64,000 bases of DNA. Source: Kineosporia sp. NBRC 101731 (lineage in GTDB: Bacteria > Actinomycetota > Actinomycetes > Actinomycetales > Kineosporiaceae). The notes beneath the pieces are model-generated. The model made no database searches. It was not told the origin of the DNA and saw nothing but the letters and a program-made list of their open reading frames with translations. The stretch lies in NCBI RefSeq assembly GCF_030269305.1, contig NZ_BSTC01000007.1, forward strand, positions 310,001 through 374,000, read 5' to 3'. Below are positions 20,511-40,686 of the stretch, piece by piece (position 1 is the stretch's first letter; each line of letters begins with the position of its first letter). Position numbers and translations under genes: made by a program.

Positions 20511-20798
20511 TTACTCCACGTCGTCGTACTGGGCGAATTTCGGCGGGGCCGCCGCCGCGCCGCTGATGAACGTGGTCCAGGCCTGGGTGTGGGCCTGCTC
20601 CTTGTGGGCCTCGTGGTCGGCCGCCGTGGTCCAGACCTCCAGCAGGCGCAGGTTCTCGGCCTCGCCGAGCTTCCAGGACAGCTGGTACTCCACGCAGCCG
20701 GTCTCCTCCAGGCACAGCTTCTGGAAGGCGGCGCCCTGCGCCTCGACCTCCGCGACGTGCGCCGGGTCGACGGTGATGCCGCCGTGAACGATCCTCAT
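20511..20798 (-). CDS. ABM-domain small protein
   Basis: A 95-residue antibiotic-biosynthesis-monooxygenase (ABM) fold protein; the pattern GCVEYQLSWKLGEAENLRLLEVWTT fits the ferredoxin-like barrel, with E-W in the conserved strand. Such proteins act as cofactor-free oxygenases or as small partners in aromatic pathways. It is the last gene of the large minus-strand run, 9 bp after the LLM gene, and just before a long inverted repeat. Its substrate is unknown. Confidence 0.82.
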   Translation of the reverse strand: MRIVHGGITVDPAHVAEVEAQGAAFQKLCLEETGCVEYQLSWKLGEAENLRLLEVWTTAADHEAHKEQAHTQAWTTFISGAAAAPPKFAQYDDVE

Positions 20799-20807
20799 GA
20801 TCTCTCC

Positions 20808-21809
20808 TCAGACGAGTTCGCGCAGCGCCGGCAGCACCTGGCTGCCGATCAGCCGCACGGCCGATACCGGGTCCGGTCCCATCGGGGGACCGAACGAAAT
20901 ATGTTTCACCCCAGCGTCGATGAGCTGGGCGCACTGCTCGATCACCTCGTCCACCCCACCCACGATGCCCAGCTCCAGCATCGTGTCGGTGACCGAGGCG
21001 ACCGCGTCGTCCTCGCGCCCGGCGAGCATCAGCTCCTGGGTGCGGGCGAACTCCTGCGGGTCGAGCCCGTTGGCGGCCAGGGCGTCGGTGGACAGCGAAC
21101 CGCTGTAGAGCGCGATGTGCCGCGCCATCAGGGTTCTCGCCTCGTCGCGGTCGTCGCTGATGCTCGCCCACACGCACGCCGCCACATCGAGGTCGTCGAT
21201 GGTGCGGCCGGTCTTGGCTGCCCCGGCCTTGAGCTGCTCGACCACTCCGTAGACGTGGCGGGGCGGCAGGCACAGGGGCAGGGCGCCGTCGGCGATCTTC
21301 CCGGTCAGGTCGATCATCTTCGGGCCCATCGCGCCGATGTAGATCGGGACCGGGCGGTGGCTGCGCAGTTTCGCGTTCTCGGTCCACAGGTCACCGGTGC
21401 CGGGCACACCCGCCGGGCTGCGGCCGTTCGTCAGCTCGCGGATGGCGAGCACGGCCTCCCGGGTGCGGACCACGGGTTTGGCCGGCTCGAGCCCGGCCCA
21501 GCGGAAGAACACGTCCGAGCCGGCGCCCAGGCCCAGCAGGAAGCGGTCGCCGGAGATCTCCTGCAGCCCGGAGGCGAACATCGCGATCTGGGCCGGGTGC
21601 AGGGAGACCGGGTCGATGACGCCCGAGCCGAACCGGATCCGGGACGTCTTCATCGCGATCGCCGCGAGCGTCACCAGCCCGGGTTCGCCGAACATGTCGT
21701 TGCCGGTCCACACCTGGTCGAAACCGGCGTCCTCCACCAGCAGGGCCTTCTCGACCACGGACATCACGCCGTGCCCGCCGATGCGGGCGCTGAAGATCAG
21801 CTCGCTCAC
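20808..21809 (-). CDS. LLM class flavin-dependent oxidoreductase (paralog A)
   Basis: A 333-residue luciferase-like TIM-barrel flavoenzyme. Typical segments are DAGFDQVWTGNDMF, RIRFGSGVIDPVSLHPAQIAM and FLLGLGAGSDVFFRWAGLEP. It starts at GTG 21809, overlapping the stop of the preceding TIGR04076-like gene (GTGA). Family members use FMNH2 or F420 to oxidise or reduce diverse substrates. It is clearly paralogous to the gene at 25928, sharing TGND, NPVSLHPAEIAM-like and AGLEPA motifs in the same places. The physiological substrate is unknown. Confidence 0.85.
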   Translation of the reverse strand: MSELIFSARIGGHGVMSVVEKALLVEDAGFDQVWTGNDMFGEPGLVTLAAIAMKTSRIRFGSGVIDPVSLHPAQIAMFASGLQEISGDRFLLGLGAGSDVFFRWAGLEPAKPVVRTREAVLAIRELTNGRSPAGVPGTGDLWTENAKLRSHRPVPIYIGAMGPKMIDLTGKIADGALPLCLPPRHVYGVVEQLKAGAAKTGRTIDDLDVAACVWASISDDRDEARTLMARHIALYSGSLSTDALAANGLDPQEFARTQELMLAGREDDAVASVTDTMLELGIVGGVDEVIEQCAQLIDAGVKHISFGPPMGPDPVSAVRLIGSQVLPALRELV

Positions 21810-22072
21810 GACTCCTCCAGGGGCTCGACGCGGATGTGCAGGTTCTCGGGCGGGTCCGGACAGGCCAGCAGGGGCCTGGAGCGCAGGAACTCGTCGGGTC
21901 CGGCGGCGTCGAGCCGTCCCAGCACCGACGGGATCACCGCGGCGATGGCGAAGTAGCAGAAGCGCTTTCCCTCGGGCACGGTGACGCCGGTGGGGGAGAG
22001 CTCGAACCAGTCGCCGACCTCCAGGGCGCACGCCGAGTAGTTCATGTCCTCCACCGTGCAGCGGACCTTCAC
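21806..22072 (-). CDS. TIGR04076 family protein, copy 1
   Basis: An 88-residue protein with the layout of TIGR04076: an initial strand MKVRCTVEDM, a CALEVGDWFELSP segment, GKRFCYFAIAAVIPSVL, and the closing CPDPPENLHIRVE. The function of this family is not established; the conserved CPD near the end and the VGD segment are its hallmarks. It is followed without gap by LLM paralog A (4-bp overlap) and preceded by a second, divergent copy 7 bp upstream. Confidence 0.7.
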   Translation of the reverse strand: MKVRCTVEDMNYSACALEVGDWFELSPTGVTVPEGKRFCYFAIAAVIPSVLGRLDAAGPDEFLRSRPLLACPDPPENLHIRVEPLEES

Positions 22073-22079
22073 AGCTTGA

Positions 22080-22358
22080 TCACCAGGCCTCCAACCGCAG
22101 AACGACGTTCTCGGACACGTCCGGACAGCACAGGAACGGTTTGCGGGCCAGCCAGTCGTCGGCCGGCAGCGCGTTCTGGCGCATCCCGAGCACCGGGATC
22201 ACACTCATCAAGGCCTGGGGGCAGAAGGGTTTCCCGCCGGTGGAGAGTCCCGGCCCGTCCACGTCGACACTGTCGCCGACCCGGATGCCGCACCTGGGTG
22301 CGTCCGCCCGCTCCACCACGATCCGCACCCTGGGTGACGGGGGCAGCATCTCAGCCAT
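22080..22358 (-). CDS. TIGR04076 family protein, copy 2
   Basis: A 92-residue relative of the downstream gene: RIVVERADAPRCGIRVGDSVDV, GGKPFCPQALMSVIPVLGM and CCPDVSENVVLRLE align with the same landmarks (VGD, C-x-x-A...IPVL, CPD-x-x-ENV). The two copies share perhaps a third of residues by eye. Its start overlaps the last 8 bp of the SDR gene. Two tandem copies inside a catabolic operon suggest a hetero-oligomer, which is inference. Confidence 0.68.
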   Translation of the reverse strand: MAEMLPPSPRVRIVVERADAPRCGIRVGDSVDVDGPGLSTGGKPFCPQALMSVIPVLGMRQNALPADDWLARKPFLCCPDVSENVVLRLEAW

Positions 22359-23109
22359 GGATCGGCTCCCCTCCGGTCAGCCAGAGCACCTGCCCGGTGA
22401 TCGCGGGGGAGTCCACGAGCGTGAGGACGCCGTCGGCGACGTCGGCCGGGGAGGGGAACCGGGGCAGGGCCATCCGTTCGAGGAGCCGATCGGAGAGCGC
22501 CGCCTGCTGCGGGGTCAGCTCGTCGGGGACGGAGGGGTCGACCACCCGCCCGGGCGCGACGATGTTGGCGGTGATCCCCGCGCGTCCCTCCTCCAGGGCG
22601 AGGTACTTCGTGAGCGTCGTGGCGGCGGCCTTCGCCGCGCCGTAGAAACCGAATCCTGTTGCCGGCCGGGACATCAGGGCCCCGGACAGGTAGATGATCC
22701 GGCCCCGGCCGAGCGCGCGCATGGCCGGCACCACCCGGGCGCAGAGCGCGGCGTGGGCAGACACCCCGGCCAGCTGGGCGGCCAGGGCGGCGGGATCGCC
22801 GTCCGCCACCGCTGCGGGTGACGACAGGCCCGGGTGCGCGGCGTTGACGAGCACCGATACCGGTCCCAGGTGGTGCTCCACGGTGTCCACGGCGTCGGCG
22901 AGCTCCCCGGGCGAGGTCAGGTCGGCCCCGACCACCAGATGTTCCCCGGGCAGCCCCGCGATCAGTTCCTGGGCGGTCTCGGGACGGCTGCGGTAGTGCA
23001 CGGCGACGCGTAGTCCCCGCCCGGCCAGCGTGGCCACCACGGCCCGCCCCAGCGGGCCGGTGCCGCCCGCGACCAGGGCGACCGACGCGTCCTCGATCGT
23101 GGTGGTCAT
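22351..23109 (-). CDS. SDR family oxidoreductase
   Basis: A 252-residue classical short-chain dehydrogenase. The cofactor motif is GGTGPLGRA (residues about 15-23; an atypical GGxGxxG form), the catalytic serine lies in IYLSGALM and the YxxxK pair in FYGAAKAAA. The C-terminal [12 protein letters not shown] is typical. It probably oxidises or reduces a hydroxyl/keto intermediate with NAD(P)(H). It follows the amino-acid ABC ATPase gene with a 4-bp overlap (23106-23109), tying metabolism to uptake in one transcript. Confidence 0.85.
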
Positions 23110-23873
23110 CGCAGGACCGCCGCCAGGAACGCCTGGGTGCGCTCCTGCGTGGGCGACCCGAGCACCTGCTCGGGGGTTCCCTCCTCGACCACGCGACCCG
23201 CGTCCATGAAGATCACCCGGTCGCTGACCTCGCGGGCGAAGCCCATCTCGTGGGTGACGACGACCACCGTGATGCCGCCGGTGGTGGCGAGATCCTTCAT
23301 CACGCTGAGCACCTCACCGACCAGCTCGGGGTCGAGGGCGCTGGTGGGTTCGTCGAAGAGCATCACCTGCGGGCGCATCGCCATCGCCCGGGCGATCGCG
23401 ACCCGCTGCTGCTGGCCGCCGGACAGCTTGGAGGGGTAGGAGTCCTCCTTGCCGGAAAGTCCCACCCGGCCGAGCAGTTCCTGGGCGTAGGCCCTGGCCT
23501 GCGCCGGTTTCTCACCTTTCACCCGGACCGGTGCGAACGAGACGTTCTCCAGCGCCGTCATGTGCGGGAAGAGGTTGAACTGCTGGAACACCATGCCGAT
23601 GCCCAGGCGCTGACGGCAGGCCTCGTGCTCGCGCAGTTCGTGCAGCCGGCCGTTGTGCTCGCGGTAGCCGACCAGATCGCCGTTCACCGAGATGCTGCCG
23701 GCGTTGATGTCCTCGAGATGGTTGACGGTCCGCAGCAGCGTGCTCTTGCCCGATCCGGAAGGGCCGATGATGCAGACCGTCTCACCCTGCATCACCTGGA
23801 GGTCGACACCGAACAGCACCTGGTTCTGGCCGTACCACTTGTCCACGCCCTGGATGTCGATCATCACGTTCAT
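23106..23873 (-). CDS. Polar amino acid ABC transporter, ATP-binding protein
   Basis: A 255-residue ATPase of the GlnQ/HisP family. Walker A is GPSGSGKST (about residue 38), the signature is [14 protein letters not shown], Walker B is [12 protein letters not shown] and the H-loop is VVVTHEM. ATG 23873 overlaps the permease stop (ATGA). Together with the permease and the binding protein at 27011 it makes a complete uptake system. Context suggests import of tryptophan, kynurenine or another aromatic compound rather than a generic amino acid. Confidence 0.92.
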
Positions 23874-24721
23874 CGCTCGGCCGCCCGTCGCTCCAGGAAG
23901 AACTGCGCCGTCGAGTAGACGACGATCACCAGCAGGTACCAGATGGTGGCCACGATGAGCATCTCGATCGTGCGGAAGTTGATGCCCGAGATGCCCTGCA
24001 CCACGGTGAGCAGGTCGCCACCGGCGATCACCGACACGATGGCCGAGGCCTTCAGCATGCCGATGAACTCGTTGCCCAGCGGCGGGATGATCACCCGCAG
24101 GGCCTGCGGCAGCACGATGTAGCGCAGGGTCAGGGTGCGGTTGAGCCCCAGGGCCTTGGCGGTCTCGTGCTGGCCGTTGCCCACCGCCAGCAGGCCGCTG
24201 CGCACGATCTCGGCCATGTAACCGGAACCCGCCAGGGACAGCCCGATCACGGAGGCCACGAACGGGGTCACGATCTCGCCGACCGGGGCCGACCAGAAGG
24301 TGACGTCGGTGAACGGGATGCCGAGGCGGAACTCCCGGAAGAACAGGCCCAGGTTGCCGACGAAGATCAGCAGCACGATCAGCGGCACGCCGCGGAACAG
24401 GAACACCCAGATCGACGCGGCGCCGGAGATGATCCGGCTCGGTGACATCCGCATGACGCCCACGACGATCGCCAGGGCCAGCGCGACCACCATGCCGATG
24501 ACGGTCATCTCGAGGGTCAGCAGCAGGCCCTTGAGCACGGTCCGGGCGAAGAGGTACTGCCCGACCACGCTCCACTCGAAGTTCGGGTTCGTGGCCACGC
24601 CGTAGAGCATCCAGGCCACGAGCAGCACGACCACGCCGGCCCCGATGCCGCGACCCCAGTGCCGGACCGGCACCACGTCACGTTGGGGCGCCTTCACCGT
24701 GTCGATGCCGACCTCGGTCAT
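23870..24721 (-). CDS. Polar amino acid ABC transporter, permease
   Basis: A 283-residue membrane protein of the HisM/GlnP family, with an N-terminal cytoplasmic extension and five to six helices. The conserved ATPase-contact loop is [20 protein letters not shown], followed by [14 protein letters not shown]. Only one permease gene is present, so the channel is presumably a homodimer. The ATG at 24721 overlaps the stop of the monooxygenase gene by 4 bp. Confidence 0.9.
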
Positions 24722-25902
24722 GCCGCCTCCTGCGGATGCGCGGTGACCAGGGCCTGGCCGACCGACAGCCAGCGGCTGCGCCAGGTGGAGGCGTGGGCGC
24801 CCATGCCGGTGGTGTCGCGCACCAGCTTCTCGAACGGATAACGCTCGTAAATGGCCTGGGAACCCATGATCTCGCCGCAGTGGTCGACCACCCGGCGGGT
24901 GAAGTCGTGGGCCAGGGGTGCGTCGCCGCGGGCCATCACGGTGTCGTCCGGCACCACGCCGGGGGTGAAGATGGCCGCGTCGATCGCGCTGACGCCGTCG
25001 ATCACCAGGGAGCGCGCGGCGTGCACGTAGCTCGACGCCTCTCCGAGCAGGCTGATCTGCCGCTCGCTGGGCGTGCGGCCCTTCGCGGACGCCAGGGCCG
25101 CCAGATAGGCGGTGGCCAGGTCGATCGCGTGCTGGGCGATGCCGACCGAGATCCCGGCCATGCTGTAGAACGGCAGATCGACGTGCTTGTTCAGCGGTTC
25201 GGCGTCGGCGGTCGGGGTGAAGAACCGGTCGAAGCAGTGGTGCTCGGGCACGAACACGTCGGTGACGGTGTAGCCCTGGCTGGCCGAGGCCCGCAGGCCG
25301 ATCACGTGCCAGTCGTCCAGCAGCCGCACCTGGTCGGTGGGCAGCCACACGCCGAGGGTGAGCACGCTGCCGTCGGCCTTGCGCACCTTCTCGCCGGCCT
25401 CGGTCTCCACCTCGGCCCCGCCGACGATGCGCTCGGCGGAACGGATGCCGCTGCCGAAGTTCCAGGTGCCGGTGACCCGGTAGCCGCCGGGCACCTGCAC
25501 GGCTTTCGCCTTGGGGTGGAACGAACCGCAGGTGGGCAGGTCGAGGGCGGGGTAGAGCTCGTCGTAGGCCGCCGGCGACAGGCGCCCGGCGTAGAACCCG
25601 GTGGCGGCCAGGACACAGACGTTCCAGGCGATCCCGGCGTCGGCCGTGGCGATCAGCTCGATCATCCGGGTCTGGTCGGCCAGGGTCATCTCGGGCCCGC
25701 CGTGCGCGGTGCTGAAGCCCACCCGGAACGTTCCCGCGGTGCGGAAGGCCTCGCGCAGCCGGTCGGTGAGGTGGCCCTGCGCCTCGCACTGCGCGGCGTC
25801 CTCACGCACGAGCGGCAGCAGGGCCTGCACGTTGGCGAGGATGTCGGCCGACGTCAGCGGTTCGCGCAGCTGGGGCTCGGGGGTGGCGGTGGCGGTACTC
25901 AT
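24718..25902 (-). CDS. Acyl-CoA-dehydrogenase-fold flavin monooxygenase
   Basis: A 394-residue protein with the acyl-CoA dehydrogenase fold. The pattern TAHGGPEMTL, AGIAWNVCVLAATGFYA, GYRVTGTWNFGSGIRSAE and DDWHVIGLRASASQGYTVTDVFVP matches oxygen-dependent relatives (HsaA, DszC and IacA-like) that hydroxylate aromatic or indolic substrates with reduced flavin, rather than true CoA dehydrogenases. The reductase would be the flavin reductase at 28402. It sits between LLM paralog B and the permease gene. Whether it acts on an indole, anthranilate derivative or another substrate cannot be decided here. Confidence 0.8.
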   Translation of the reverse strand: MSTATATPEPQLREPLTSADILANVQALLPLVREDAAQCEAQGHLTDRLREAFRTAGTFRVGFSTAHGGPEMTLADQTRMIELIATADAGIAWNVCVLAATGFYAGRLSPAAYDELYPALDLPTCGSFHPKAKAVQVPGGYRVTGTWNFGSGIRSAERIVGGAEVETEAGEKVRKADGSVLTLGVWLPTDQVRLLDDWHVIGLRASASQGYTVTDVFVPEHHCFDRFFTPTADAEPLNKHVDLPFYSMAGISVGIAQHAIDLATAYLAALASAKGRTPSERQISLLGEASSYVHAARSLVIDGVSAIDAAIFTPGVVPDDTVMARGDAPLAHDFTRRVVDHCGEIMGSQAIYERYPFEKLVRDTTGMGAHASTWRSRWLSVGQALVTAHPQEAA

Positions 25903-25927
25903 GGCTGATTCACTCCCTGGTCGTGGT

Positions 25928-26923
25928 TCAGGTGGGGCGCAGGGCGGGCAGCACGTGCCGGCCCAGCAGGGTCAGAGCTTGTACGGGGGATGCGCCCAGG
26001 GGCTGCCCGAACGACAGATGGTGGACGCCCCGGCTCACCAGTTCCTCACAGCGTTCGGTGACGTCGTTCACGTCACCGGCCATGCCCAGGCGCAGCATGG
26101 CCTCGTCCACGGCGTCGATCGCGGCCTCGGTGTCCCCGGCGGTCATCAGGGCCTGTACGTGGGCGAACCGCTCCACGTCGAAGCCGGCCGCCTCCAGGGT
26201 GTCCGGGGCCAGCGATCCCGCGTAGGGCGCGATCTTCGAGGCCAGTCGCCGCTTTGCGGCCTCCCGGTCGTCGTCGATGGACACCCACAGGCAACAGGCG
26301 AGATCGAACGGATCGGTGCGCCCGCCGCGTCCCTCATCGATCTGTGCGGAGAACCACTCGATCCGGTCGGGCGGAAGGCACAGCGCCAGCGCGCCGTCGG
26401 CCTCCCGCCCGGCCAGGGCGAGCATCTTCGGGCCCATCGCCCCGAGGTAGATCGGGGTGGGCAGAGCCGGGCCGTCCTTCAGGCGGGCCTGCTCGTGCCA
26501 GCCCTCGGGTACCCGGCCCTCCAGCAGCGCCCGGACCGCGCGCAGCCCTTCCCGGGTACGGGGGACCGGCCGGGCCGGCTCCAGCCCGGCCCAGCGCAGG
26601 AACACCTCGGAACCGGCACCCAGACCGAGCAGGTACCGGCCGTGCGAGATGTCCTGCAGCTGGGCCGCGATCATCGCGATCTCGGCCGGGTGCAGACTGA
26701 CCGGGTTGAGCACGCTCGACCCGACCCTGATCCGGCTGGTCGCCGTGAGGGCGACGGTGACCGGGACGATGCCCGAGCGCCGCAGCAGGTCGTTGCCGGT
26801 CCAGATCTGGTCGAAGCCCAGTTCCTCGGCCGCCAGAGCACATTCACGGAACACGGAGACCGGTGTGCCGCTGCTGAGGCGGACGCTGAAGGTGAGGCGT
26901 TCATCGGGCTCGCGCGCTGTCAC
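25928..26923 (-). CDS. LLM class flavin-dependent oxidoreductase (paralog B)
   Basis: A 331-residue luciferase-like flavoenzyme with ELGFDQIWTGNDLL, RIRVGSSVLNPVSLHPAEIAM and YLLGLGAGSEVFLRWAGLEP. I start it at GTG 26923 because AAGGAGG lies about ten bases upstream; the open frame extends to 27001 across a terminator palindrome. Compared with paralog A at 20808 the two align along their whole length. Having two copies in one operon suggests two related oxidation steps or a heterodimer like LuxAB. Confidence 0.85.
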   Translation of the reverse strand: MTAREPDERLTFSVRLSSGTPVSVFRECALAAEELGFDQIWTGNDLLRRSGIVPVTVALTATSRIRVGSSVLNPVSLHPAEIAMIAAQLQDISHGRYLLGLGAGSEVFLRWAGLEPARPVPRTREGLRAVRALLEGRVPEGWHEQARLKDGPALPTPIYLGAMGPKMLALAGREADGALALCLPPDRIEWFSAQIDEGRGGRTDPFDLACCLWVSIDDDREAAKRRLASKIAPYAGSLAPDTLEAAGFDVERFAHVQALMTAGDTEAAIDAVDEAMLRLGMAGDVNDVTERCEELVSRGVHHLSFGQPLGASPVQALTLLGRHVLPALRPT

Positions 26924-26964
26924 GGTTCCCCTTCCTCCTTCCGCCGCCGCACTTCGTTCGTCCT

Positions 26965-26996
26965 CAGGCAGACCTTCCCCGGGGAAGGTCTGCCTG
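26965..26996. terminator. 32-bp perfect palindrome after the binding-protein gene
   Basis: CAGGCAGACCTTCCCC (26965-26980) is directly followed by GGGGAAGGTCTGCCTG (26981-26996). It begins 15 bp after the stop of the solute-binding-protein gene on the minus strand. The CCCC/GGGG centre and adjoining TGATCATG are shared with the other long palindromes. A partial terminator here would raise binding-protein mRNA over the downstream genes. Confidence 0.7.
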
Positions 26997-27010
26997 ATCA
27001 TGGTTGACGA

Positions 27011-27973: not shown

Positions 27974-28063
27974 GGGGAAATCCGTTCGGTCGGGGTGGGA
28001 GGCAGAACCGAGTGACGCTGGATAACCGGTGGGGAGCTGGATGGCCGCTGGACGGCCGTTGGA

Positions 28064-32016: not shown

Positions 32017-32017
32017 C

Positions 32018-32872: not shown

Positions 32873-32906
32873 GGGAACCTCCGTCGCTCGGTGGTGTTCG
32901 GTGATC

Positions 32907-32928: not shown

Positions 32929-33044
32929 AAAGATGGTGAGATGTAAACTCGGGATTTCCTGCAGCTGTAGGTCAAGTGCCCCTGGCCGGCGATATGTCAG
33001 CAAAGGTCCCGAAGGCGCGGCCCGCGCCTTCCCCGTCCTTCCTT

Positions 33045-33127
33045 CGTGATCATGCAAAACCTCCCCAGAGTTCTAGAACTCTGCGCTGGACAGTTCTATA
33101 ACTTCGGGGAGGTTTTGCATGATCACG
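33045..33127. terminator. Nested palindrome after the anthraniloyl-CoA enzyme gene
   Basis: The outer arms CGTGATCATGCA + AAACCTCCCC (33045-33066) and their exact reverse complement (33106-33127) form a 22-bp stem. The 39-nt loop contains a perfect 16-bp palindrome, AGAGTTCTAGAACTCT (33067-33082), and AGTTCTATAACTT (33092-33104), a near palindrome, giving a cloverleaf-like fold. It follows the gene at 33144 on the minus strand and precedes the kynA promoter, so it insulates the two units. Confidence 0.7.
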
Positions 33128-33143
33128 GGAGTTTGGGGGGCGT

Positions 33144-35519
33144 TCAGCCCGTGAGGGCGGGGCGCCAGCGCAGGTGGGTGCGGTCTTCCTCGGGTCGGGT
33201 GGCCCGCAGGAGCTGCAGGCGGGGGCGGACGGCGTCGGTCCGGGCCGAGGGCGGGCGGCGCCGGCCGGCGGCGAAGGGTAGGGGCCAGGGGGCGCCCGGG
33301 CCGCGGTAGTCCTGCTCGGCGGCGGCGTGCAGGGTCCACTGCGGGTCGTAGAGATGGGTGCGGCCCAGCGCACACAGGTCGGCCCGGCCGGCCAGCAGGA
33401 TGGAGTTCACGTCGTCGTACGAGGAGATGGCCCCCACCGCGATCACGGCCACCCCGGCCGGGCCGGCGACCTCGTGCCGGATCCGGTCGGCGAACGGCGT
33501 CTGGTACGAGCGCCCGAAGGCCGGTTTCTCCTCCTTGGCCACCTGCCCGGACGACACGTCGATCCCGTCGGCCCCGTGCTCGACGAAGGCGGCCGCGATG
33601 GCGACCGCGTCGTCCACCGTGTTCCCACCGGGCACCCAGTCGGTGGCCGACAGGCGCACCAGCAACGGACGATCGGCCGGCCAGACCGCGCGCACCGCGT
33701 CGAAGACCTCGAGCGGGAAACGCAAGCGGTTCGCCGCACTGCCGCCGTACGCGTCCTGGCGCCGGTTGGACAGGGGCGACAGGAAGGACGACAGCAGGTA
33801 CCCGTGGGCGCAGTGCAGTTCCAGCACGTCGAACCCGGCCGCGGCCGCCCGGCGGGCGCAGGCGGTGAAGTCCTCGACGATCGCGGCGAGATCGGCGCGG
33901 GTGAGCTCGCGGGGCACCAGGGAGCCGGGACCGTAGGGCAGCGCCGACGGGCCGGTCACATCCCACCCGCCCTCGGTCAGGGGGTCGTCGATGCCCTCCC
34001 ACATCACCTTGGTCGAGCCCTTGCGCCCGGAATGACCCAGCTGCACACCGATCCGCGCACCGGGCGAGGTGTGCGCCAGGTCGACCACGCGCCGCCAGGC
34101 GTCTTCCTGTTCCTGCGTGTACAGCCCGGCGCAGCCGGGGGTGATACGGGCCTGCGGTGACACACAGACCATCTCGGTCATCACCAGCCCGGCGCCGCCC
34201 AGGGCCTTGGAGCCCAGGTGGGCCAGGTGGAAGTCGCCGGGCACGCCGTCCACGGCCGAGTACATGTCCATGGCCGAGACCACCACCCGGTTGCGCAGTT
34301 CCAGGCCGCCCAGGCGCAGCGGCTGGAACATGGCCGGGACCGAGGGATCACCGGCGCAACCGGTGGCGAAACGTTCCTGTACCCGGGCCGCGAACGCCGG
34401 GTCACGCGTCCGCAGATTGTCGAAGGTGATCCGCCGGGAGCGCGTGATCAGGTTGAAGCAGAACTCCACCGGGTCGTCGGCCGCCTGAGCGGCGTACACG
34501 CCGAGGTTCTCGAACCACTCCAGCGATGCCTGGGCGGCCCGCTGGGTGGACTCCACCACCGGGCGCCGCTCGGTCTCGTACGCCTGCAGGGCCGCGTCGA
34601 CCGATGGCTGTTCGTGCAGGCAGGCGACCAGGGCCAGGGCGTCTTCCATCGCGAGCTTGGTGCCCGAGCCGATGGAGAAGTGCGCGGTGTGCGCGGCGTC
34701 GCCGAGCAGCACCACGTTGCCGGTGCTCCAGTGCCCGCACCGCACGGTGGTGAAGTTCAGCCACTTGGAGTTGTTGGCCAGCAGCGCGGCGCCGTCCAGC
34801 TCCTGCGCGAACAGCGAGGAGACGCGCGCGATCGCCTGATCGTCGGACTCACCGGGCCCGAAGACCTCGCCGGTGTCGAAACCCGCCTTCGCCCAGACGT
34901 CCTCGTGCATCTCGACGATGAAGGTGGACCCGTCGTCGCCGTAGGGGTAGCCGTGCACCTGCATCGTGCCCCAGGGGGTCTGGCGTACGAAGAACTGGAA
35001 CGCCTCGAACACCCGGTCGGTGGCCAGCCACATGTACTTGCTGTGCCGCACGTCCAGGTCGGGGGCGAAATCGTCGGCGTAGCGGGCGCGCACGGCCGAG
35101 TTGATGCCGTCGCAGGCCACCACCAGGTCGTACTGCGCCCGCAGGTCGTCCACGTCCGGGGCGGGCGTGCGGTAGCGCACGTCGATGCCCAGCTCGTGGC
35201 AGCGCTGTTGCAGCAGGGCCAGCAGCCGGTGGCGGTTCATCGCGGCGAAACCCTGCCCGCCCACGGTGTGCCGTTCGCCGTCGAGGTGGATGTCGATGTC
35301 GCTCCAGCGGGCGAACTCGGCCTCCATCGTGGCGTAGAAGCCGGTGTCGGCGTTCTCGATGCCGCCGAGGGTCTCGTCGGAGAACACCACGCCGAAGCCG
35401 AACGTGTCCTGCGGCGCGTTGCGTTCCCAGACGGTGATCTCACGGGTGGGGTCGAGCTGCTGGGCCAGGGCGGCGAAGTAGAGCCCGGCCGGCCCGCCCC
35501 CGATCACGGCGATCTTCAT
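33144..35519 (-). CDS. 2-Aminobenzoyl-CoA monooxygenase/reductase-like fusion
   Basis: A 791-residue two-domain flavoprotein. The N-terminal part (about 1-385) is an FAD monooxygenase of the salicylyl-CoA 5-hydroxylase type: IGGGPAGLYFAALAQQL and LLGDAAHTAHFSIGSGTKLA. The C-terminal part (from about 395) is an old-yellow-enzyme barrel: MFQPLRLGGLELRNRVVVSA, HSGRKGS and ELHCAHGYLLSSFLSPLSNRR. This fusion is known from 2-aminobenzoyl-CoA monooxygenase/reductase, which hydroxylates and reduces anthraniloyl-CoA to a non-aromatic CoA ester. Kynureninase and a CoA ligase nearby support this over salicylyl-CoA hydroxylase. Confidence 0.88.
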   Translation of the reverse strand: MKIAVIGGGPAGLYFAALAQQLDPTREITVWERNAPQDTFGFGVVFSDETLGGIENADTGFYATMEAEFARWSDIDIHLDGERHTVGGQGFAAMNRHRLLALLQQRCHELGIDVRYRTPAPDVDDLRAQYDLVVACDGINSAVRARYADDFAPDLDVRHSKYMWLATDRVFEAFQFFVRQTPWGTMQVHGYPYGDDGSTFIVEMHEDVWAKAGFDTGEVFGPGESDDQAIARVSSLFAQELDGAALLANNSKWLNFTTVRCGHWSTGNVVLLGDAAHTAHFSIGSGTKLAMEDALALVACLHEQPSVDAALQAYETERRPVVESTQRAAQASLEWFENLGVYAAQAADDPVEFCFNLITRSRRITFDNLRTRDPAFAARVQERFATGCAGDPSVPAMFQPLRLGGLELRNRVVVSAMDMYSAVDGVPGDFHLAHLGSKALGGAGLVMTEMVCVSPQARITPGCAGLYTQEQEDAWRRVVDLAHTSPGARIGVQLGHSGRKGSTKVMWEGIDDPLTEGGWDVTGPSALPYGPGSLVPRELTRADLAAIVEDFTACARRAAAAGFDVLELHCAHGYLLSSFLSPLSNRRQDAYGGSAANRLRFPLEVFDAVRAVWPADRPLLVRLSATDWVPGGNTVDDAVAIAAAFVEHGADGIDVSSGQVAKEEKPAFGRSYQTPFADRIRHEVAGPAGVAVIAVGAISSYDDVNSILLAGRADLCALGRTHLYDPQWTLHAAAEQDYRGPGAPWPLPFAAGRRRPPSARTDAVRPRLQLLRATRPEEDRTHLRWRPALTG

Positions 35520-35550
35520 GGTGTTGCCTCTCTCAGTGATGGACGAGCCC

Positions 35551-36426
35551 TCAGATGCGGACGAGGCCTTCCTGGGCGACCGTGGCCAGGTGGGTGCCGT
35601 CGGGGGTGAAGAACCGGCCCAGTCCCAGGCCGCGCCCGCTGTGGGCGGTCACGGCCTCCTGGGCGTAGAGCAGCCAGTCGTGGGGCCCGGCGCTGCGGTG
35701 GAACCACATGGCGTGGTCGAGGCTGGCGGTGACCAGACCCGGCTGCCGCCAGGACAGGCCGAGCACCCGCAGCACGGGCTCCAGGATGGTGTAGTCGCAC
35801 ACGTAGGCGAGCGCGGCGGTGTTTCGCTGCGCGGCGCTCAGGCCGGGCACCTCGCGCAGGGTGTCGAACGGGCGCACCCAGACCGCCTGGTGCGGTTGAC
35901 GTTCCCCGTCCACCCGCAGATAGACCGGCCCGGGCACGTGACGCAGGTCGAAACTGCGCCCCGACGACCAGTACGCGCGCACCTCCGGGTCGTCCAGGCC
36001 CTCCAAGGTGCTGGCCGCCGGGGGCAGGACGTGCGGGTCGGGGACGTCCGCCGGCGGGCTCGCGGTGTACTCGGGCCCGGGTTCGCCGGTGTGGAAGGAG
36101 GCCAGCGCCGTGTAGACGACCTTGCCGTTCTGGTAGGCCCGCACCTGCCGGGTGGAGTAGCCGCGCCCGTCGCGCAGGCGTTCCACCTCGTACCGCACGG
36201 CCCGGCCGATGTCGGCCGGGCGCAGGAAGTAGCTGTGCATCGAGTGCAGGGACCGGTCCTCGCCGGTGGTCCGCACGGCCGCGACGGCGGCCTGGGCCAC
36301 CAGGTCGCCGCCGTAGGCCTTGGGCCAGGGGCAGGGGCCGGTGACGCCCTCGAAGGCGTCGTCGAAGACCTGGGCGGTGACCGGTTCGAGCGTGAGGACG
36401 TCGGTGAGGGTCTGCGATGTCGTCAT
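35551..36426 (-). CDS. Acyl-CoA thioesterase II (TesB-like)
   Basis: A 291-residue double-hotdog thioesterase. WPKAYGGDLVAQAAVAAV, HSMHSYFLRPADIGRAVRYEVERLRDGRGYSTRQV and the second half with TASLDHAMWFHRSAGPHDWLLY and GRGLGLGRFFTPDGTHLATVAQEGLVR are typical of TesB. The ATG at 36426 overlaps the cupin stop by 4 bp. It probably releases CoA from a pathway intermediate or relieves stalled thioesters. Its place between the CoA-dependent oxygenase and the cupin suggests a dedicated role. Confidence 0.88.
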   Translation of the reverse strand: MTTSQTLTDVLTLEPVTAQVFDDAFEGVTGPCPWPKAYGGDLVAQAAVAAVRTTGEDRSLHSMHSYFLRPADIGRAVRYEVERLRDGRGYSTRQVRAYQNGKVVYTALASFHTGEPGPEYTASPPADVPDPHVLPPAASTLEGLDDPEVRAYWSSGRSFDLRHVPGPVYLRVDGERQPHQAVWVRPFDTLREVPGLSAAQRNTAALAYVCDYTILEPVLRVLGLSWRQPGLVTASLDHAMWFHRSAGPHDWLLYAQEAVTAHSGRGLGLGRFFTPDGTHLATVAQEGLVRI

Positions 36427-36899
36427 CGGCGGCGGAAGCCGGTCAGGTCGGTGTCGGGGACGTCCTCGAAGTTGACCACGAGGTTCTCCGGGGTGCGGGT
36501 GGTCAGCCAGACGAGTTCCTCGGTGGTCGACATGTTGCACTCCACGTGCGGCAGGAACGGCGGCACGAACACCCAGTCACCGGTCTCCAGGTCGACGTAC
36601 TCCTCGTAGGCGTGGCCGTAGTAGATGCGGGCCGAGCCGGAGAGCACGTAGCCGCCGGTCTCGGCCTCCCCGTGGTGGTGCGGCACCGACCGGAACCCGG
36701 CGTCGTTGAGTACCTTTCCGTACCAGAGGCGGCGGGCCGGGGTGTGCTGCCGGCTCACGCCCGACATCCGCACGGCGCCCCCGGAGTGCAGCGTGCGCCC
36801 GTCCTCCTCGCCGGCCCGGGTGACCACCGGCATCAGGCGGCCGTCGGGCAGCGCCCAGGGGGTCGGATCTCCTTGCAGTTCATAGCCTTCGAAGTTCAT
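36423..36899 (-). CDS. Cupin-domain protein
   Basis: A 158-residue single-domain cupin starting at ATG 36899, with GGAGG ten bases upstream. Cupin motif 1 is PHHHGEAETGGYVLSG (HxH-x3-E), and motif 2 is GDWVFVPPFLPHVECN (H-x3-N), so a metal site is intact. It does not resemble 3-hydroxyanthranilate dioxygenase or gentisate dioxygenase beyond the fold. It is the first gene of the cupin-tesB-oxygenase operon and is divergent from ridA. A dioxygenase, isomerase or sensor role is possible. Confidence 0.8.
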   Translation of the reverse strand: MNFEGYELQGDPTPWALPDGRLMPVVTRAGEEDGRTLHSGGAVRMSGVSRQHTPARRLWYGKVLNDAGFRSVPHHHGEAETGGYVLSGSARIYYGHAYEEYVDLETGDWVFVPPFLPHVECNMSTTEELVWLTTRTPENLVVNFEDVPDTDLTGFRRR

Positions 36900-36924
36900 C
36901 CGGCAGCCTCCGTCAGGTTGGTAT

Positions 36925-36946
36925 GTATCGAAGTTTGCACGATCGT
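36925..36946. promoter_or_regulatory. Shared 22-nt motif in the cupin/ridA divergent promoter
   Basis: The block at 36925-36946 starts GTATCGAAGTTTG and ends ACGATCGT, an 8-bp palindrome. It resembles 32907-32928 upstream of kynA and, over GTTT..ACGAT.GTC, the block at 40822 upstream of the CoA ligase gene. It is 26 bp before the cupin start and 46 bp before ridA. Confidence 0.45.
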
Positions 36947-36991
36947 CAGGTAGAGTCAATAAGACAGTAGGTCCGAGACGAGGAGTCGCAG

Positions 36992-37417
36992 ATGCCCGTT
37001 CCCGTGAACCCGGCGTCCCTGCCCGTGCCCCGCGGCTACTCGCACGGCACGCTCAGTGGCAACACGCTCTACCTGGGCGGCCAGACCGCCCTCGATGCGG
37101 ACATGAAGATCGTGCCGGGCGGGATCGTGCCGCAGTTCCGGCAGGCGTTCGGCAACGTCCTGGCCACCCTGCGGGAGGCCGGCGGCCTGCCCGAAGACCT
37201 GGTCAGCATCACGATCTACCTCACCGATATCCCCGGCTACCAGGCCCACGGTCGCGAGATCGGCCAGGCCTGGCGGGAACTCGCCGGGCCCGTCTATCCG
37301 GCGATGGCCGGCATCGGCTGTACGGCGCTGTGGCAGCCCGAGGCGCTGATCGAGATCGTCGGGGTGGCGCAGATCCCCTCGTCCCGGCTGGTCGAGCCGG
37401 CCGTCGTGTCCCGATAA
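36992..37417 (+). CDS. RidA family protein
   Basis: A 141-residue RidA/YjgF-type protein (GTLSGNTLYLGGQTALD, QFRQAFGNVLATLREAGG, VSITIYLTDIPGY). Family members deaminate reactive enamine/imine intermediates; some act in 2-aminomuconate or aminoaromatic pathways. The product expected from the oxygenase at 33144 carries an enamine group, so hydrolysis to a ketone plus ammonia is a reasonable inference. An AGGAG ribosome site lies ten bases before the ATG. It is followed 10 bp later by the second paaX gene. Confidence 0.87.
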   Translation: MPVPVNPASLPVPRGYSHGTLSGNTLYLGGQTALDADMKIVPGGIVPQFRQAFGNVLATLREAGGLPEDLVSITIYLTDIPGYQAHGREIGQAWRELAGPVYPAMAGIGCTALWQPEALIEIVGVAQIPSSRLVEPAVVSR

Positions 37418-37427
37418 GGTCCGTTGC

Positions 37428-38267
37428 GTGAGGATCCAGGGCGACACCGACGCGGACACCGACGCCGAGGAGAGCGGGGGCCGCGCGGCGCCCCGCAGCC
37501 TGATCGTGACCACGTACGGGCTGTACGCGCGGCGCACGCAAGGCTGGATGAGTGTGGCCGGGCTGATCCGGCTGATGTCGTTCCTCGACGTCGAGGCCCC
37601 GGCCGTGCGCTCGTCGATCCTGCGGCTCAAGCGCCGCGGGGTGCTGGAGGCCGAACGCCGCGACGGGGTCGCCGGATACACGCTGTCGGCCGGGGGTCTG
37701 CACATCCTGCAGGAGGGCGACCGCCGCATCTTCGAGCACCCGCGCGCGGGCCTGTCCGACGGCTGGCTGCTGGCGGTGTTCAGCATCCCGGAGTCCGAAC
37801 GCAACAAGCGCCACCTCCTGCGCAGCCGCCTGACCTGGCTGGGGTTCGGCACCGTGTCCTCCGGGGTGTGGATCGCGCCGGGCCACCTGGAGGCCGATGC
37901 CCGCGCGGTGCTGTCCCGCGACGGTCTGGACGCTTTCGTGAACCTGTTCCGCAGCGACTACCTGGGCTTCGGCAGGATCGAGCAGGAGGCGGCGCGCTGG
38001 TGGGACCTGGCGGGCCTGGCCGCTCAGTACGAGGACTTCCTCGGCACCTGGCAGGCCCGCCTGGTCCTGCCGCACGACGATGCCGAGGCCTTCCGCGACT
38101 ACCTGACCGCGCTCACGCTCTGGCGCCGCCTGCCGTTCCTGGACCCGGGTCTACCGGTCGAGGTGGTGGGCCCGGACTGGGCCGGGGAGCGGGCCGGCCG
38201 GCTGTTCTCCGAACTGCGCCGCGCCTGGGAGGGCCCGGCCGAACGCCATGTGCGGTCGTTGGTCTAG
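37428..38267 (+). CDS. PaaX family transcriptional regulator 2
   Basis: A 279-residue PaaX-type protein from GTG 37428. The winged helix (GLYARRTQGWMSVAGLIRLM, then RSSILRLKRRGVLE) and the PaaX core (WLLAVFSIPESERNKRHLLRSRLTWLGFG, WWDLAGL, DPGLPVEVVGPDWAG) are clear. It differs markedly from the paralog at 28905. Two PaaX regulators in one island suggest that two different aryl-CoA esters or two operon sets are sensed. Its TAG stop overlaps the convergent FAH gene's TAG within a CTAG palindrome. Confidence 0.9.
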   Translation: MRIQGDTDADTDAEESGGRAAPRSLIVTTYGLYARRTQGWMSVAGLIRLMSFLDVEAPAVRSSILRLKRRGVLEAERRDGVAGYTLSAGGLHILQEGDRRIFEHPRAGLSDGWLLAVFSIPESERNKRHLLRSRLTWLGFGTVSSGVWIAPGHLEADARAVLSRDGLDAFVNLFRSDYLGFGRIEQEAARWWDLAGLAAQYEDFLGTWQARLVLPHDDAEAFRDYLTALTLWRRLPFLDPGLPVEVVGPDWAGERAGRLFSELRRAWEGPAERHVRSLV

Positions 38268-39115
38268 ACCAGCGACGCGCGGGAGACCCGGTTCACCAGC
38301 ACGCCCAGGCCACTGATCTGCGTCTGGACCAGGTCACCCTCACCCAGCCGGACCTGCGGGTCGCGGGCGTTGCCGATCCCCGAGGGGGTGCCGGTCAGTA
38401 CCACGTCACCCGCGCGCAGCGTCATCCCCCGGCTCAGCTCGGCGATCAGGCGCGGCACGGCGAAGGCCATCTGCGAGGTCGAGGCCGACTGCATCACCGT
38501 GCCGTTCACCCGGCAGGTGATCTCCAGGTCGCCCGGGTCGATCTCGTCCAGGGTGGTCAGCCAGGGTCCGAGCGGGCAGGTGCGGTCGATGCTCTTGCCC
38601 TTCAGCCACTGCCCGCCGTGCTGGAACTGCAGGTCGCGGAGCGACACGTCGTTGGCCACCATCACCCCGAAAACGTGTTTCCAGGCTTGGTCCTCGGTGA
38701 TCGAGCGGCCGTCACGCCCGATCACCAGGGCCAGTTCGGCCTCGTAGTCGTAGCGCTGCGACAGGTCCGGGTCCCAGGCGATGTCGTCGCGCGGCCCGAT
38801 CACGCTGTCAGGTGCCCGGGTGAAGAAGTTCGGGTGCTCGGGCAGTGGTGTTCCCGGGCCTTGCGTCTCGTAGAAGTGGTCGAGGTAGTTCCAGCCGGTG
38901 CACAGCAGGTCGCGGTTGAACCGTGACACCGGTGCGGCCAGATCGGCTGCGGCGAGCGGGATCCGCTCACCACCCACCAGCTGCGCGGGATCCACGATCC
39001 CGCGCACCACATCGTCCACCGAAGCTTTCAGTTCATGATGGACGACGACGTCACCGTTCGCGTCCACCGTCCCGATCCGGGGTCCCCGGCTCGTGCGGAC
39101 CGTGGCCAGGCGCAC
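38264..39115 (-). CDS. Fumarylacetoacetate hydrolase family protein
   Basis: A 283-residue FAH-fold enzyme. The metal-binding acidic residues lie in RYDYEAELALVIGRDGRSI (about residues 125-140) and in NDVSLRDLQ; KGKSIDRTCPLGPWL and VVLTGTPSGIG complete the signature. Such enzymes cleave C-C bonds of beta-diketones or decarboxylate/hydrate oxo acids. In this setting it may open or trim the dearomatised ring product. The GTG at 39115 directly follows the stop of the 66-aa gene. Confidence 0.9.
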   Translation of the reverse strand: MRLATVRTSRGPRIGTVDANGDVVVHHELKASVDDVVRGIVDPAQLVGGERIPLAAADLAAPVSRFNRDLLCTGWNYLDHFYETQGPGTPLPEHPNFFTRAPDSVIGPRDDIAWDPDLSQRYDYEAELALVIGRDGRSITEDQAWKHVFGVMVANDVSLRDLQFQHGGQWLKGKSIDRTCPLGPWLTTLDEIDPGDLEITCRVNGTVMQSASTSQMAFAVPRLIAELSRGMTLRAGDVVLTGTPSGIGNARDPQVRLGEGDLVQTQISGLGVLVNRVSRASLV

Positions 39116-39316
39116 TCAGACGCCCTCGTCCACGAGGTGCTCGAACCGCAGCCCGAGGTCGGTGACGGCCACGGCCACCGGCGCCAGGGCCGTGCGCACG
39201 TTGGCCACCACGCACGGCGTCACCGCGTCCCGGGCCAGGGCCCGCAGCTTCTCGTACACGTCGAGCAGCTGGGACTCCTCGGCGGTCAGGTCATTGCCCC
39301 ACAGATCCTGCTGCAT
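39116..39316 (-). CDS. Uncharacterised 66-aa protein
   Basis: I do not recognise this small protein (MQQDLWGNDLTAEESQLLDV, then YEKLRALARDAVTPCVVANV...). It is predicted helical, acidic at both ends, with one cysteine and no signal peptide. It starts 18 bp after the CoA ligase stop and ends directly at the FAH-family start, so it is part of the ligase-FAH operon. The start is an ATG preceded by AAGGGAAACAGCT. It may be a small subunit or chaperone; that is conjecture. Confidence 0.7.
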   Translation of the reverse strand: MQQDLWGNDLTAEESQLLDVYEKLRALARDAVTPCVVANVRTALAPVAVAVTDLGLRFEHLVDEGV

Positions 39317-39333
39317 AGCTGTTTCCCTTCCGG

Positions 39334-40686
39334 TCAGGAACTGGTGCTCAGGCTGGTGTGCTCGACGGCCGGGCGCAGGTCGGCCAGCCGCTTGGCCTTC
39401 AGCTCGAACCGCGGCAACTGCCCGGTCCCCGCCCGCTCCAGGATGAAACGCAGGCCCTCGTGAGCCTGCGCGAGCTCGCCGCCCAGGGTCTGCGACAGGG
39501 CCTGCCAGGCGCCGTCGTCGATCCGCGGATGCGGCTCGACCTGCAGCACCACCTCGTCACGCAGACCCCGCCGCTCGATACGGATCTGGAACTCCTCGAT
39601 CCCCTCATGACCGCGCAGGATGGCCTCGATCGCGCCCGGGTACACATTGGTGCCGCGCACGAGCTTCATGTCGTCCGCGCGCCCGACGATCCCACCCTCG
39701 TACAGGTCCCAGGTGCGGCCGTTGCCCGCCGAGGCCGCCGGTTGACGTACCACCAGATCGGCCGTGCGGTACCGCAACAGGGGGATCATGCTGCGCCCGA
39801 ACGAGGTGCACACCCGCTCGCCGCGCTCGCCGTAGCCGAGCGGCTCCTGGGTGTCCGGGTCGATGACCTCCTCGACGAAGTGGTCCTCGATGATGTGGCA
39901 GCCGCCCGGCTGGTTCTCCGGCTCGAACATGAAAATGGTGGATATCTCGGTCATCCCGGCGGTGTCGAAGGCCTTCGCGCCCCACAGCCGCTCGATCAGC
40001 GCCTTGGTCTCGACGATCGAGCCGGCGGGTTCACCGCTGAGCACCAGCCGCGTCACCGCGCTGGAGGGCAGGTCGATACCGAGGTTCTCGGCCTCCTGGG
40101 CCATGCGCAGCGCGTAGGTCGGGGTGGTGGCCACCACGGTGGCGCCGAAGTCGGCGATCTGTCGCACCCGGGCCGCGGTGCTCTGCGCACCGCCGGGCAC
40201 GGTCAGTGCGCCGATCTTCTCCAGACCGTTGTGCAGACCCCAGAACCCGATGAACGAACCGTAGCCGAAGGCCAGGTAGCCCACGTCGCGCGGCCGGATC
40301 CCCATGCCCCACAGGGCGTAGGACCACATCTCGGCCGCCCAGGACCAGTCCTTGCGCGAGTCCAGGGCCCGCAGCGGGGTGCGCCCGGAGGTGCCGCTGG
40401 TGGTGTGTACCCGGATCGCGGCCCCGGCCCCGGCGACCGGGAGCTCACCGTAGGGAGGGTGCTCGTTCTGGCTGTGCATCCACTGCTCGCGGGTCAGCAG
40501 CGGGATCCGGCGCAGGTCGTCGAGCGTTTTCAGCTGGCTGGGCTCGAAACCCGCCGCGGCGAAAGTGCGCCGGTAGAAAGGGCTGCGCGCGGCCGCCCAC
40601 TCGGTCACCGCCCGCAGCTTGACCAACTGCAGGGCCGCCAGCTGCTCGCGCGGCAGGCATTCGGTCTTCGGGTTCCAGAAGTCCAT
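39334..40686 (-). CDS. PaaK-type aryl-CoA ligase, candidate anthranilate-CoA ligase
   Basis: A 450-residue AMP-forming ligase of the phenylacetate-CoA ligase family. The P-loop is VHTTSGTSGRTPLRAL (about residues 95-110), with VLSGEPAG, FDTAGMTEISTIF, and YRTADLVV following, and a C-terminal AMP-binding cap (GRADDMKLVRGTNVYP). I start it at ATG 40686 (MDFWNPKTE) because AAGGAGG lies 11 bases before it. Because kynureninase makes anthranilate and the adjacent oxygenase uses an aminobenzoyl-CoA, anthranilate is the likely substrate. Phenylacetate itself is unlikely, as no paaA-E genes are here. Confidence 0.87.
   Translation of the reverse strand: MDFWNPKTECLPREQLAALQLVKLRAVTEWAAARSPFYRRTFAAAGFEPSQLKTLDDLRRIPLLTREQWMHSQNEHPPYGELPVAGAGAAIRVHTTSGTSGRTPLRALDSRKDWSWAAEMWSYALWGMGIRPRDVGYLAFGYGSFIGFWGLHNGLEKIGALTVPGGAQSTAARVRQIADFGATVVATTPTYALRMAQEAENLGIDLPSSAVTRLVLSGEPAGSIVETKALIERLWGAKAFDTAGMTEISTIFMFEPENQPGGCHIIEDHFVEEVIDPDTQEPLGYGERGERVCTSFGRSMIPLLRYRTADLVVRQPAASAGNGRTWDLYEGGIVGRADDMKLVRGTNVYPGAIEAILRGHEGIEEFQIRIERRGLRDEVVLQVEPHPRIDDGAWQALSQTLGGELAQAHEGLRFILERAGTGQLPRFELKAKRLADLRPAVEHTSLSTSS

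Follow-up and report, generated by a model that had tools for sequence, protein, structure and literature searches.

The window analysed here, a stretch of 64,000 nucleotides from Kineosporia sp. NBRC 101731 (contig NZ_BSTC01000007.1, positions 310,001 to 374,000), contains an island of about 20 kb in which genes for tryptophan 2,3-dioxygenase (kynA) and kynureninase (kynU) lie beside those for a 2-aminobenzoyl-coenzyme A (CoA) monooxygenase/reductase fusion enzyme, a PaaK-type acyl-CoA ligase and two PaaX-type regulators. Nearly all the genes are on the minus strand, from 40686 down to 20511. They run in the order ligase, DUF6052 protein and fumarylacetoacetate hydrolase (FAH)-superfamily protein; cupin, TesB-type thioesterase and fusion enzyme; kynA, amidohydrolase, kynU, PaaX1 and flavin reductase; and then solute-binding protein, LLM2, flavin monooxygenase, permease, ATPase, short-chain dehydrogenase, TIGR04076 protein, LLM1 and ABM-domain protein. 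The exceptions are the divergent RidA and PaaX2 genes on the plus strand. Every gene named in a first-pass annotation of this DNA, FAH and RidA included, is present, with the ligase and fusion genes upstream of the kyn genes in the sense of the minus strand; unnamed there were the thioesterase, cupin and flavin reductase and the flavoenzyme and transporter genes of 20511-27973. Judged from its genes and their relatives, the island is very probably a catabolic unit for tryptophan, and probably for imported kynurenine, acting through anthraniloyl-CoA.

The interval 20511-40686 had been treated as one unit, and comparison with a congener (G402) agrees with this: nucleotide alignment (blastn) covers 20522-40853, with nothing alignable beyond either end, and the island genes are in identical order with protein identities of 59-94%. 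The host genome is 8.26 Mb in size, with the island on its contig 7. Among the six genomes of the genus searched, the fusion enzyme and kynA were each found in two and kynU in five, one of these at 45% identity. At the same site the nearest genome by flanks (G400), in which these match up to 20432 and from 40928, holds an amidohydrolase-kynU pair alone, so that the island was either acquired around such a pair or mostly lost from around one. The kyn genes (kynA and kynU), the core around the fusion enzyme and the flavoenzyme/ATP-binding cassette (ABC) transporter module occur together also in G402, Rhodococcus sp. NJ-530 and Herbiconiux ginsengi, where the stretch stops inside the permease gene. 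A chance neighbourhood was rejected, since these three share most of the unit and parts of it are found elsewhere; the catabolic island is real and compact, and has relatives on plasmids.

Table 1. Genes and predicted sites of the island, in window coordinates. Gene starts are chosen in-frame start codons.
Feature	Position	Strand	Basis
Whole island, conserved block common to G402, flanks not	20511..40853	.	blastn 20522-40853
ABM-domain small protein (module U)	20511..20798	-	PF03992
LLM1, luciferase-like (F420/FMN) oxidoreductase, start approximate (module U)	20808..21800	-	PF00296; F420 LLM models below cut-off
TIGR04076 family small protein (module U)	22080..22358	-	TIGR04076 44.5 bits, cut-off 33
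Short-chain dehydrogenase (module U)	22351..23109	-	PF13561
Amino-acid-type ABC transporter ATPase, start approximate	23106..23867	-	PF00005; EhuA/GlnQ-like, below cut-offs
Amino-acid-type ABC transporter permease, start approximate	23870..24709	-	Translation; matches annotated NJ-530 permease
Acyl-CoA-dehydrogenase-fold flavin monooxygenase, HsaA/XiaF-like (module U)	24718..25902	-	PF08028; HsaA model 103 bits, below cut-off 450
LLM2, luciferase-like oxidoreductase, 53% identical to LLM1 (module U)	25928..27001	-	PF00296
Family 3 solute-binding lipoprotein	27011..27973	-	PF00497
Flavin reductase	28402..28908	-	PF01613
PaaX1, kyn-operon-type PaaX regulator	28905..29783	-	PaaX Pfam domains; 51-53% to PaaX of four kyn operons
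KynU kynureninase	29780..31045	-	TIGR01814 253.1 bits, cut-off 246.4
Amidohydrolase-superfamily protein, candidate N-formylkynurenine formamidase	31042..32016	-	PF01979 25.3 bits (cut-off 25); kynA-X-kynU synteny; metal site
KynA tryptophan 2,3-dioxygenase	32018..32872	-	TIGR03036 394.9 bits, cut-off 390.7
Predicted PaaX operator upstream of kynA	32903..32946 (readings 32911-32946 minus, 32903-32938 plus)	.	Weight matrix 18.5 bits; palindrome
2-Aminobenzoyl-CoA monooxygenase/reductase fusion (ABMR)	33144..35519	-	NF006101 1191 bits, cut-off 1078; 70% to pAL1 homologue
TesB-type acyl-CoA thioesterase	35551..36426	-	Family scan; near ABMR in 79/80 loci
Cupin	36423..36899	-	Family scan; near ABMR in 78/80 loci
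Predicted PaaX operator, divergent cupin/RidA promoter	36921..36956	.	Weight matrix 29.0 bits
RidA-family enamine/imine deaminase	36992..37417	+	PF01042; near ABMR in 79/80 loci
PaaX2, anthraniloyl-CoA-core-type PaaX regulator	37428..38267	+	PaaX Pfam domains; pairwise identity highest to PaaX of L149, of the NJ-530 core and of pAL1
FAH-superfamily hydrolase	38264..39115	-	Family scan; near ABMR in 61/80 loci
66-residue DUF6052 protein	39116..39316	-	PF19522; 75% in G402
PaaK-type acyl-CoA ligase, proposed anthranilate-CoA ligase	39334..40686	-	Family models; comparison with AMP-binding ligases
Weak predicted PaaX operator upstream of ligase	40811..40846	.	Weight matrix 5.4 bits; corresponding G402 place 6.4

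Both enzymes that mark the kynurenine (anthranilate) pathway, tryptophan 2,3-dioxygenase and kynureninase, score over their curated cut-offs. As had been reported, kynA, the amidohydrolase gene and kynU are contiguous; together with PaaX1 they form a tight series in which neighbours are 1 base apart or overlap by 4 bases, as kynU and the amidohydrolase gene do, and the spacing looks like that of a single transcript. The linear-plasmid island of Rhodococcus sp. NJ-530 shares kynA, kynU, the core, the flavoenzyme/ABC module (with one LLM) and two PaaX genes, but has an AMP-binding ligase and an alpha/beta hydrolase; neither the amidohydrolase nor the PaaK-type ligase was found in the NJ-530 and Herbiconiux stretches examined. 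An alanine dehydrogenase is annotated close to the NJ-530 island and another, read by eye, lies near that of G402, which fits the alanine set free by kynureninase. At least four island genes (fusion enzyme, monooxygenase, kynU and LLM1) were found by tblastn on a plasmid of R. qingshengii. kynA and kynU are also linked to the fusion enzyme in Shinella PSBB067 and in Aminobacter sp. MSH1, where the three lie within about 17 kb of plasmid pAM01 with an AMP-binding ligase; unlike the island, pAM01 has MarR/GntR regulators, and where the island has cupin, TesB and FAH it carries acyl-CoA dehydrogenase, enoyl-CoA hydratase and 3-hydroxyacyl-CoA dehydrogenase. No paper on the pAM01 cluster as a tryptophan route was found in the open-licence literature.

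The fusion enzyme joins an FAD monooxygenase half (PF01494) to an old-yellow-enzyme half (PF00724), and its score places it within NF006101, in keeping with its earlier description as 2-aminobenzoyl-CoA monooxygenase/reductase-like. It occurs in 67 of 394 genomes of the class at E<=1e-120, and 38 regions around these matches were examined. Its neighbourhood was counted in the closest 80 of 369 loci, close relatives included, with matches at E<=1e-8 over more than half of the query: TesB was present in 79, RidA in 79, cupin in 78, PaaX in 66 and FAH in 61, as against kynA in two and kynU in one. Gene calling in the fusion loci was crude, with no or few genes called for L057, L067, L071 and L072. 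The thioesterase, cupin and RidA genes, which thus accompany 78-79 of these 80 loci, would belong to a putative ring-opening route.

The part of the route below anthranilate has been described in Arthrobacter sp. Rue61a (PMC3534580), whose pathway, encoded on plasmid pAL1 and the chromosome, resembles the island in the fusion enzyme (70% identity), RidA, FAH, cupin, TesB, two PaaX genes and a promoter element. In the available part of that report, anthraniloyl-CoA and a C7H8O4-CoA ester were measured in cells grown on anthranilate, while cells grown on oxoquinaldine gave no anthraniloyl-CoA; both cloned ligases, that of the plasmid and that of the chromosome, showed anthranilate-CoA ligase activity; the strain grew on neither salicylate nor gentisate; and the fusion enzyme, of which no assay is given, is called putative and accompanied by two PaaX-related regulators (PMC3534580). 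A lower half that includes two PaaX genes has therefore been published before for an actinobacterium, and to that extent the suggestion that the system is undescribed in actinobacteria did not hold. The Rue61a pathway is, however, fed by quinaldine, its ligase is of another, AMP-binding family, and neither kyn genes nor the flavoenzyme/ABC module are present in the 34-kb stretch examined. No paper combining kynureninase with the hub enzymes or with PaaX was found in the open-licence literature, and the joining of the anthraniloyl-CoA lower half to tryptophan breakdown, plus two of its enzymes, look new. The 2-aminobenzoyl-CoA pathway of Azoarcus evansii is said to go back to Schuehle et al. 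2001. In the accessible part of a review (PMC4539516) a ligase and then a monooxygenase/reductase lead there to 2-amino-5-oxocyclohex-1-ene-carbonyl-CoA, the same two steps as proposed for the island; the lower route is beta-oxidation, and kynurenine is unmentioned in that part. In the island the thioesterase/cupin/RidA/FAH set occupies the place of the Azoarcus beta-oxidation genes.

Both PaaX proteins contain the N-terminal, middle and C-terminal domains PF07848, PF20803 and PF08223, but with 142.9 and 131.1 bits they fall under the TIGR02277 cut-off of 264.55 and are thus of the PaaX family without being PaaX proper. The presence of two genes can be accounted for, since pairwise identity places PaaX1 with the kyn-operon type and PaaX2 with the anthraniloyl-CoA-core type, to which both pAL1 proteins also belong. 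A search for exact inverted 6-mers around RidA gave clade-limited dyads only; comparison of the promoters upstream of RidA then revealed a longer common block, matched at 10 or more of 12 positions in 73 of 87 loci, many of them close relatives, against 0.65 per 87 in shuffles. A 36-base position weight matrix was trained on 49 unique sites, leaving out the 14 promoters with fewer matches and excluding the four islands (window, G402, NJ-530 and Herbiconiux). Within the window it scores highest at the cupin/RidA (29.0 bits) and kynA (18.5 bits) promoters, compared with 6.1 for the top of 100 shuffles. The kynA and RidA promoters are likewise its two best places in G402 and NJ-530, and the best and next distinct place in Herbiconiux. 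Around kynA, TGACGNNCGTCA was matched at 9 or more of 10 positions in six of eight loci with PaaX in the stretch, all six at -33 to -63, as opposed to two of 33 kynA loci without PaaX (L201 and L224). It is probable that the conserved palindrome is a PaaX operator before the cupin/RidA operons and kynA and, more weakly, before the ligase gene. A PaaX-type protein of Rue61a reportedly responds to anthraniloyl-CoA.

Family assignments, synteny with pAL1, recurrence in other genera and the common promoter element favour the route envisaged in the first-pass annotation, from tryptophan through kynurenine, anthranilate and anthraniloyl-CoA to a dearomatised product. KynA would open the indole ring to give N-formylkynurenine, the amidohydrolase would take off the formyl group, and KynU would split kynurenine into alanine and anthranilate, which the PaaK-type ligase, in place of the usual one, would convert to anthraniloyl-CoA. 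As with the Azoarcus enzyme, the fusion would hydroxylate and reduce this to 2-amino-5-oxocyclohex-1-ene-carbonyl-CoA, an enamine that RidA could hydrolyse to 2,5-dioxocyclohexane-carbonyl-CoA; FAH, cupin and thioesterase, in whatever order and with whatever division of roles, would then open the ring and release the CoA. PaaX repressors would bind the palindrome ahead of the main operons and, by analogy, be relieved by anthraniloyl-CoA. The most speculative step is that the flanking flavoenzyme/ABC module may import and oxidise another indole- or kynurenine-type substrate. Combined, these proposals make tryptophan catabolism one PaaX regulon, with a third class of formamidase, a PaaK-type ligase making anthraniloyl-CoA that is also the inducer, RidA as deaminase, ring opening by thioesterase, cupin and FAH without beta-oxidation, and an F420/flavin module as a further route into the hub; the combination is possible and is put forward tentatively.

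Several observations weigh against the scheme. The ligase site, at 5.4 bits, exceeds the 95th percentile of the shuffles (1.7) but not their maximum of 6.1, and the matrix scores in NJ-530 (4.6 and 4.2) and Herbiconiux (5.5 and -0.6) lie within the shuffle range. The NCBI name of the NF006101 family is salicylyl-CoA 5-hydroxylase/oxidoreductase, and among solved structures the ligase is nearest to 2-hydroxyisobutyryl-CoA synthetase and, almost equally, to phenylacetate-CoA ligase. Beta-oxidation enzymes encoded elsewhere in the genome could take part, and the genome also holds three matches to the KynB-type cyclase outside the island. Two congeners, G400 (L245 2637-4807) and G399 (L255 5696-7908), have the amidohydrolase-kynU pair without kynA, of which neither genome gave a match at E<=1e-30, so the amidohydrolase may act on a substrate other than N-formylkynurenine, or on imported formylkynurenine.

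The amidohydrolase is a candidate for a third type of kynurenine formamidase, with the same proposed reaction as KynB (cyclase family) and the eukaryotic serine-type formamidase, from which it differs in belonging by Pfam and metal-ligand pattern to the amidohydrolase superfamily. Residues H39, H41, K131, H163, H183 and D238 are invariant in 25 of 25 sequences, four outlying ones included, and match the HxH, Lys, His, His, Asp metal-ligand pattern of the superfamily. Relatives occur in 28 of the 394 class genomes at E<=1e-20, own genome counted. Twenty regions were examined out of the 27 other genomes with a match; each of the 16 closest has kynA and/or kynU next to it, 13 of them as kynA-X-kynU, and the four weakest have no such neighbour. 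Match coordinates add two kynA neighbours (G367 and G148), and Embleya has the same trio. Pairs of kynA and kynU lacking the amidohydrolase number seven among 20 kynA regions examined; in Herbiconiux an alpha/beta hydrolase with an HGGFW motif, presumably of the eukaryotic formamidase type, adjoins the kyn genes in its stead. The operon contains no KynB-type cyclase, the three matches of a whole-genome PF04199 search being on contigs 23, 10 and 4 and none on contig 7. Absence of the cyclase was rejected as proof of the role since it does not discriminate: the cyclase is missing from 5 of 17 genomes with the amidohydrolase beside kynA and also from 3 of 7 kynA-kynU genomes without it. One of these cyclases, or an alpha/beta hydrolase elsewhere, might instead perform the step, with the amidohydrolase removing another acyl group from kynurenine derivatives, which would agree with the pairs without kynA, the cyclase matches and a Pfam score barely above the cut-off. 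Its place between kynA and kynU, that is in reaction order, across several families, the substitution in Herbiconiux, which has most of the island otherwise, and the complete metal site make this unlikely, if still a serious alternative. An alpha/beta hydrolase family (cluster c12) was also seen in six fusion loci (L047, L052, L054, L055, L058 and L070); the member inspected has the HGGFW motif and is a possible formamidase.

For the ligase the best family model is phenylacetate-CoA ligase, at 234 bits under its cut-off of 646. In pAL1, Herbiconiux, NJ-530 and other loci the fusion enzyme has an AMP-binding ligase as its companion, six of those compared having 54-66% identity to the pAL1 ligase. 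As the island has no AMP-binding anthranilate-CoA ligase of this Rue61a kind, the best own-genome matches to one member (L042) reach 30-36%, and the PaaK-type ligase is kept in G402 at 90% identity, the latter probably replaces the usual anthranilate-CoA ligase. It was not found at E<=1e-15 in the other compared loci, mostly limited stretches around fusion or kyn genes.

Below the fusion enzyme, a role for RidA is consistent with the enamine product and with the C7H8O4-CoA ester, and FAH would suit as a C-C hydrolase. Among the island proteins, to which the scan was confined, no enoyl-CoA hydratase, hydroxyacyl-CoA dehydrogenase or thiolase was named, and the sole island protein of acyl-CoA-dehydrogenase fold fits monooxygenase models best. 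Compared with 74 other cupins that passed start and length limits, that of the window has both metal-binding motifs; the profile has weak oxalate-decarboxylase similarity only (E 5e-5), which does not fix the role. Assignment by predicted fold was dropped, the model from 19 sequences being too poor (mean predicted local distance difference test score, pLDDT, 47). Ring-cleaving cupins and maleylpyruvate hydrolase-like FAH proteins are known partners, and a lower half through 5-hydroxyanthranilate can be drawn in which the fusion or its monooxygenase half gives 5-hydroxyanthraniloyl-CoA, TesB frees the acid, the cupin cleaves it in the gentisate manner and FAH splits the product. The FAH protein does match maleylpyruvate hydrolase, at 7.8e-28, but has better matches among other FAH proteins. 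The available part of the Rue61a paper mentions a presumed hydroxyanthraniloyl-CoA, but the same text gives no growth on 5-hydroxyanthranilate or gentisate and the C7H8O4-CoA ester instead (PMC3534580). As it would also leave the reductase domain and RidA little to do, such a route is improbable. An island for salicylate or phenylacetate, with the fusion as salicylyl-CoA 5-hydroxylase, the ligase making salicylyl- or phenylacetyl-CoA and the kyn genes as chance neighbours, is suggested by the NF006101 name, the best ligase model and the PaaX regulators, but is very hard to reconcile with kyn genes near the fusion in the congener, Rhodococcus and Herbiconiux, kynU in Arthrobacter ERGS1:01 and both in Aminobacter, scans of the island proteins in which no further paa gene was named, the anthranilate context of the pAL1 relative in a host unable to grow on salicylate, the separate monooxygenase near a ligase in the own genome, and RidA, which fits an amino substrate, near the fusion in nearly all of the loci counted.

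That monooxygenase stands alone, has 44% identity to the N half of the fusion and lies about 3 kb from an acyl-CoA ligase gene (C4:478907-484211), perhaps in a salicylyl-CoA cluster. A second type of actinobacterial fusion cluster (L050-L052, L055, L056, L061-L066 and L069) lacks the cupin/TesB pair; its RidA is more distant, and a gene of cluster c4, present in 12 loci, looks from its sequence like an enoyl-CoA hydratase gene.

Anthranilate is the junction of tryptophan, indole, auxin and quinaldine breakdown, and the conserved anthraniloyl-CoA module appears as a plug-in hub, fed by the quinaldine upper pathway on pAL1 and by kynurenine here. On a plasmid of Tsukamurella tyrosinosolvens (L112) its neighbours are genes for indolepyruvate ferredoxin oxidoreductase, a cyclase and a nitrilase-type protein, which suggests an indole- or auxin-type upper pathway; in Arthrobacter ERGS1:01 they are kynU and an amidohydrolase of another sort (Pfam Amidohydro_1; no tblastn match to that of the island). 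These different neighbours indicate one conserved hub with several upper pathways in actinobacteria. The island offers test cases in a proposed third kind of kynurenine formamidase, a replaced ligase, a CoA-ester-controlled tryptophan regulon and the putative ring-opening route; the two replaced enzymes and the common regulon are the candidate parts worth testing.

No high-scoring matrix site lies ahead of the solute-binding protein gene, so that module U may be read through from upstream or otherwise controlled. Its kinds of protein are similar to those of IacA, IacG, IacE and IacB of the indole-3-acetic acid (IAA) type, a likeness at the level of protein kind; other relatives of the monooxygenase lie on Proteus Rts1 and Rhodococcus pLW3, and their surroundings there offered no clue. 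Relatives of LLM1 were found in three of the 394 class genomes at E<=1e-65 (own, G220 and G275) and in two plasmid records at E<=1e-50, both from Rhodococcus with island genes (NJ-530 and R. qingshengii). Similar LLM proteins at L059 8252-9244 and L201 12480-13487 resemble, by eye, F420-dependent glucose-6-phosphate dehydrogenase, that of L201 being luciferase-like by Pfam, a hint that LLM1 and LLM2 may use F420. Outside the island, at 10361-13968 of the window, two genes resemble by eye molybdopterin dehydrogenase subunits, in a stretch that is syntenic in G400.

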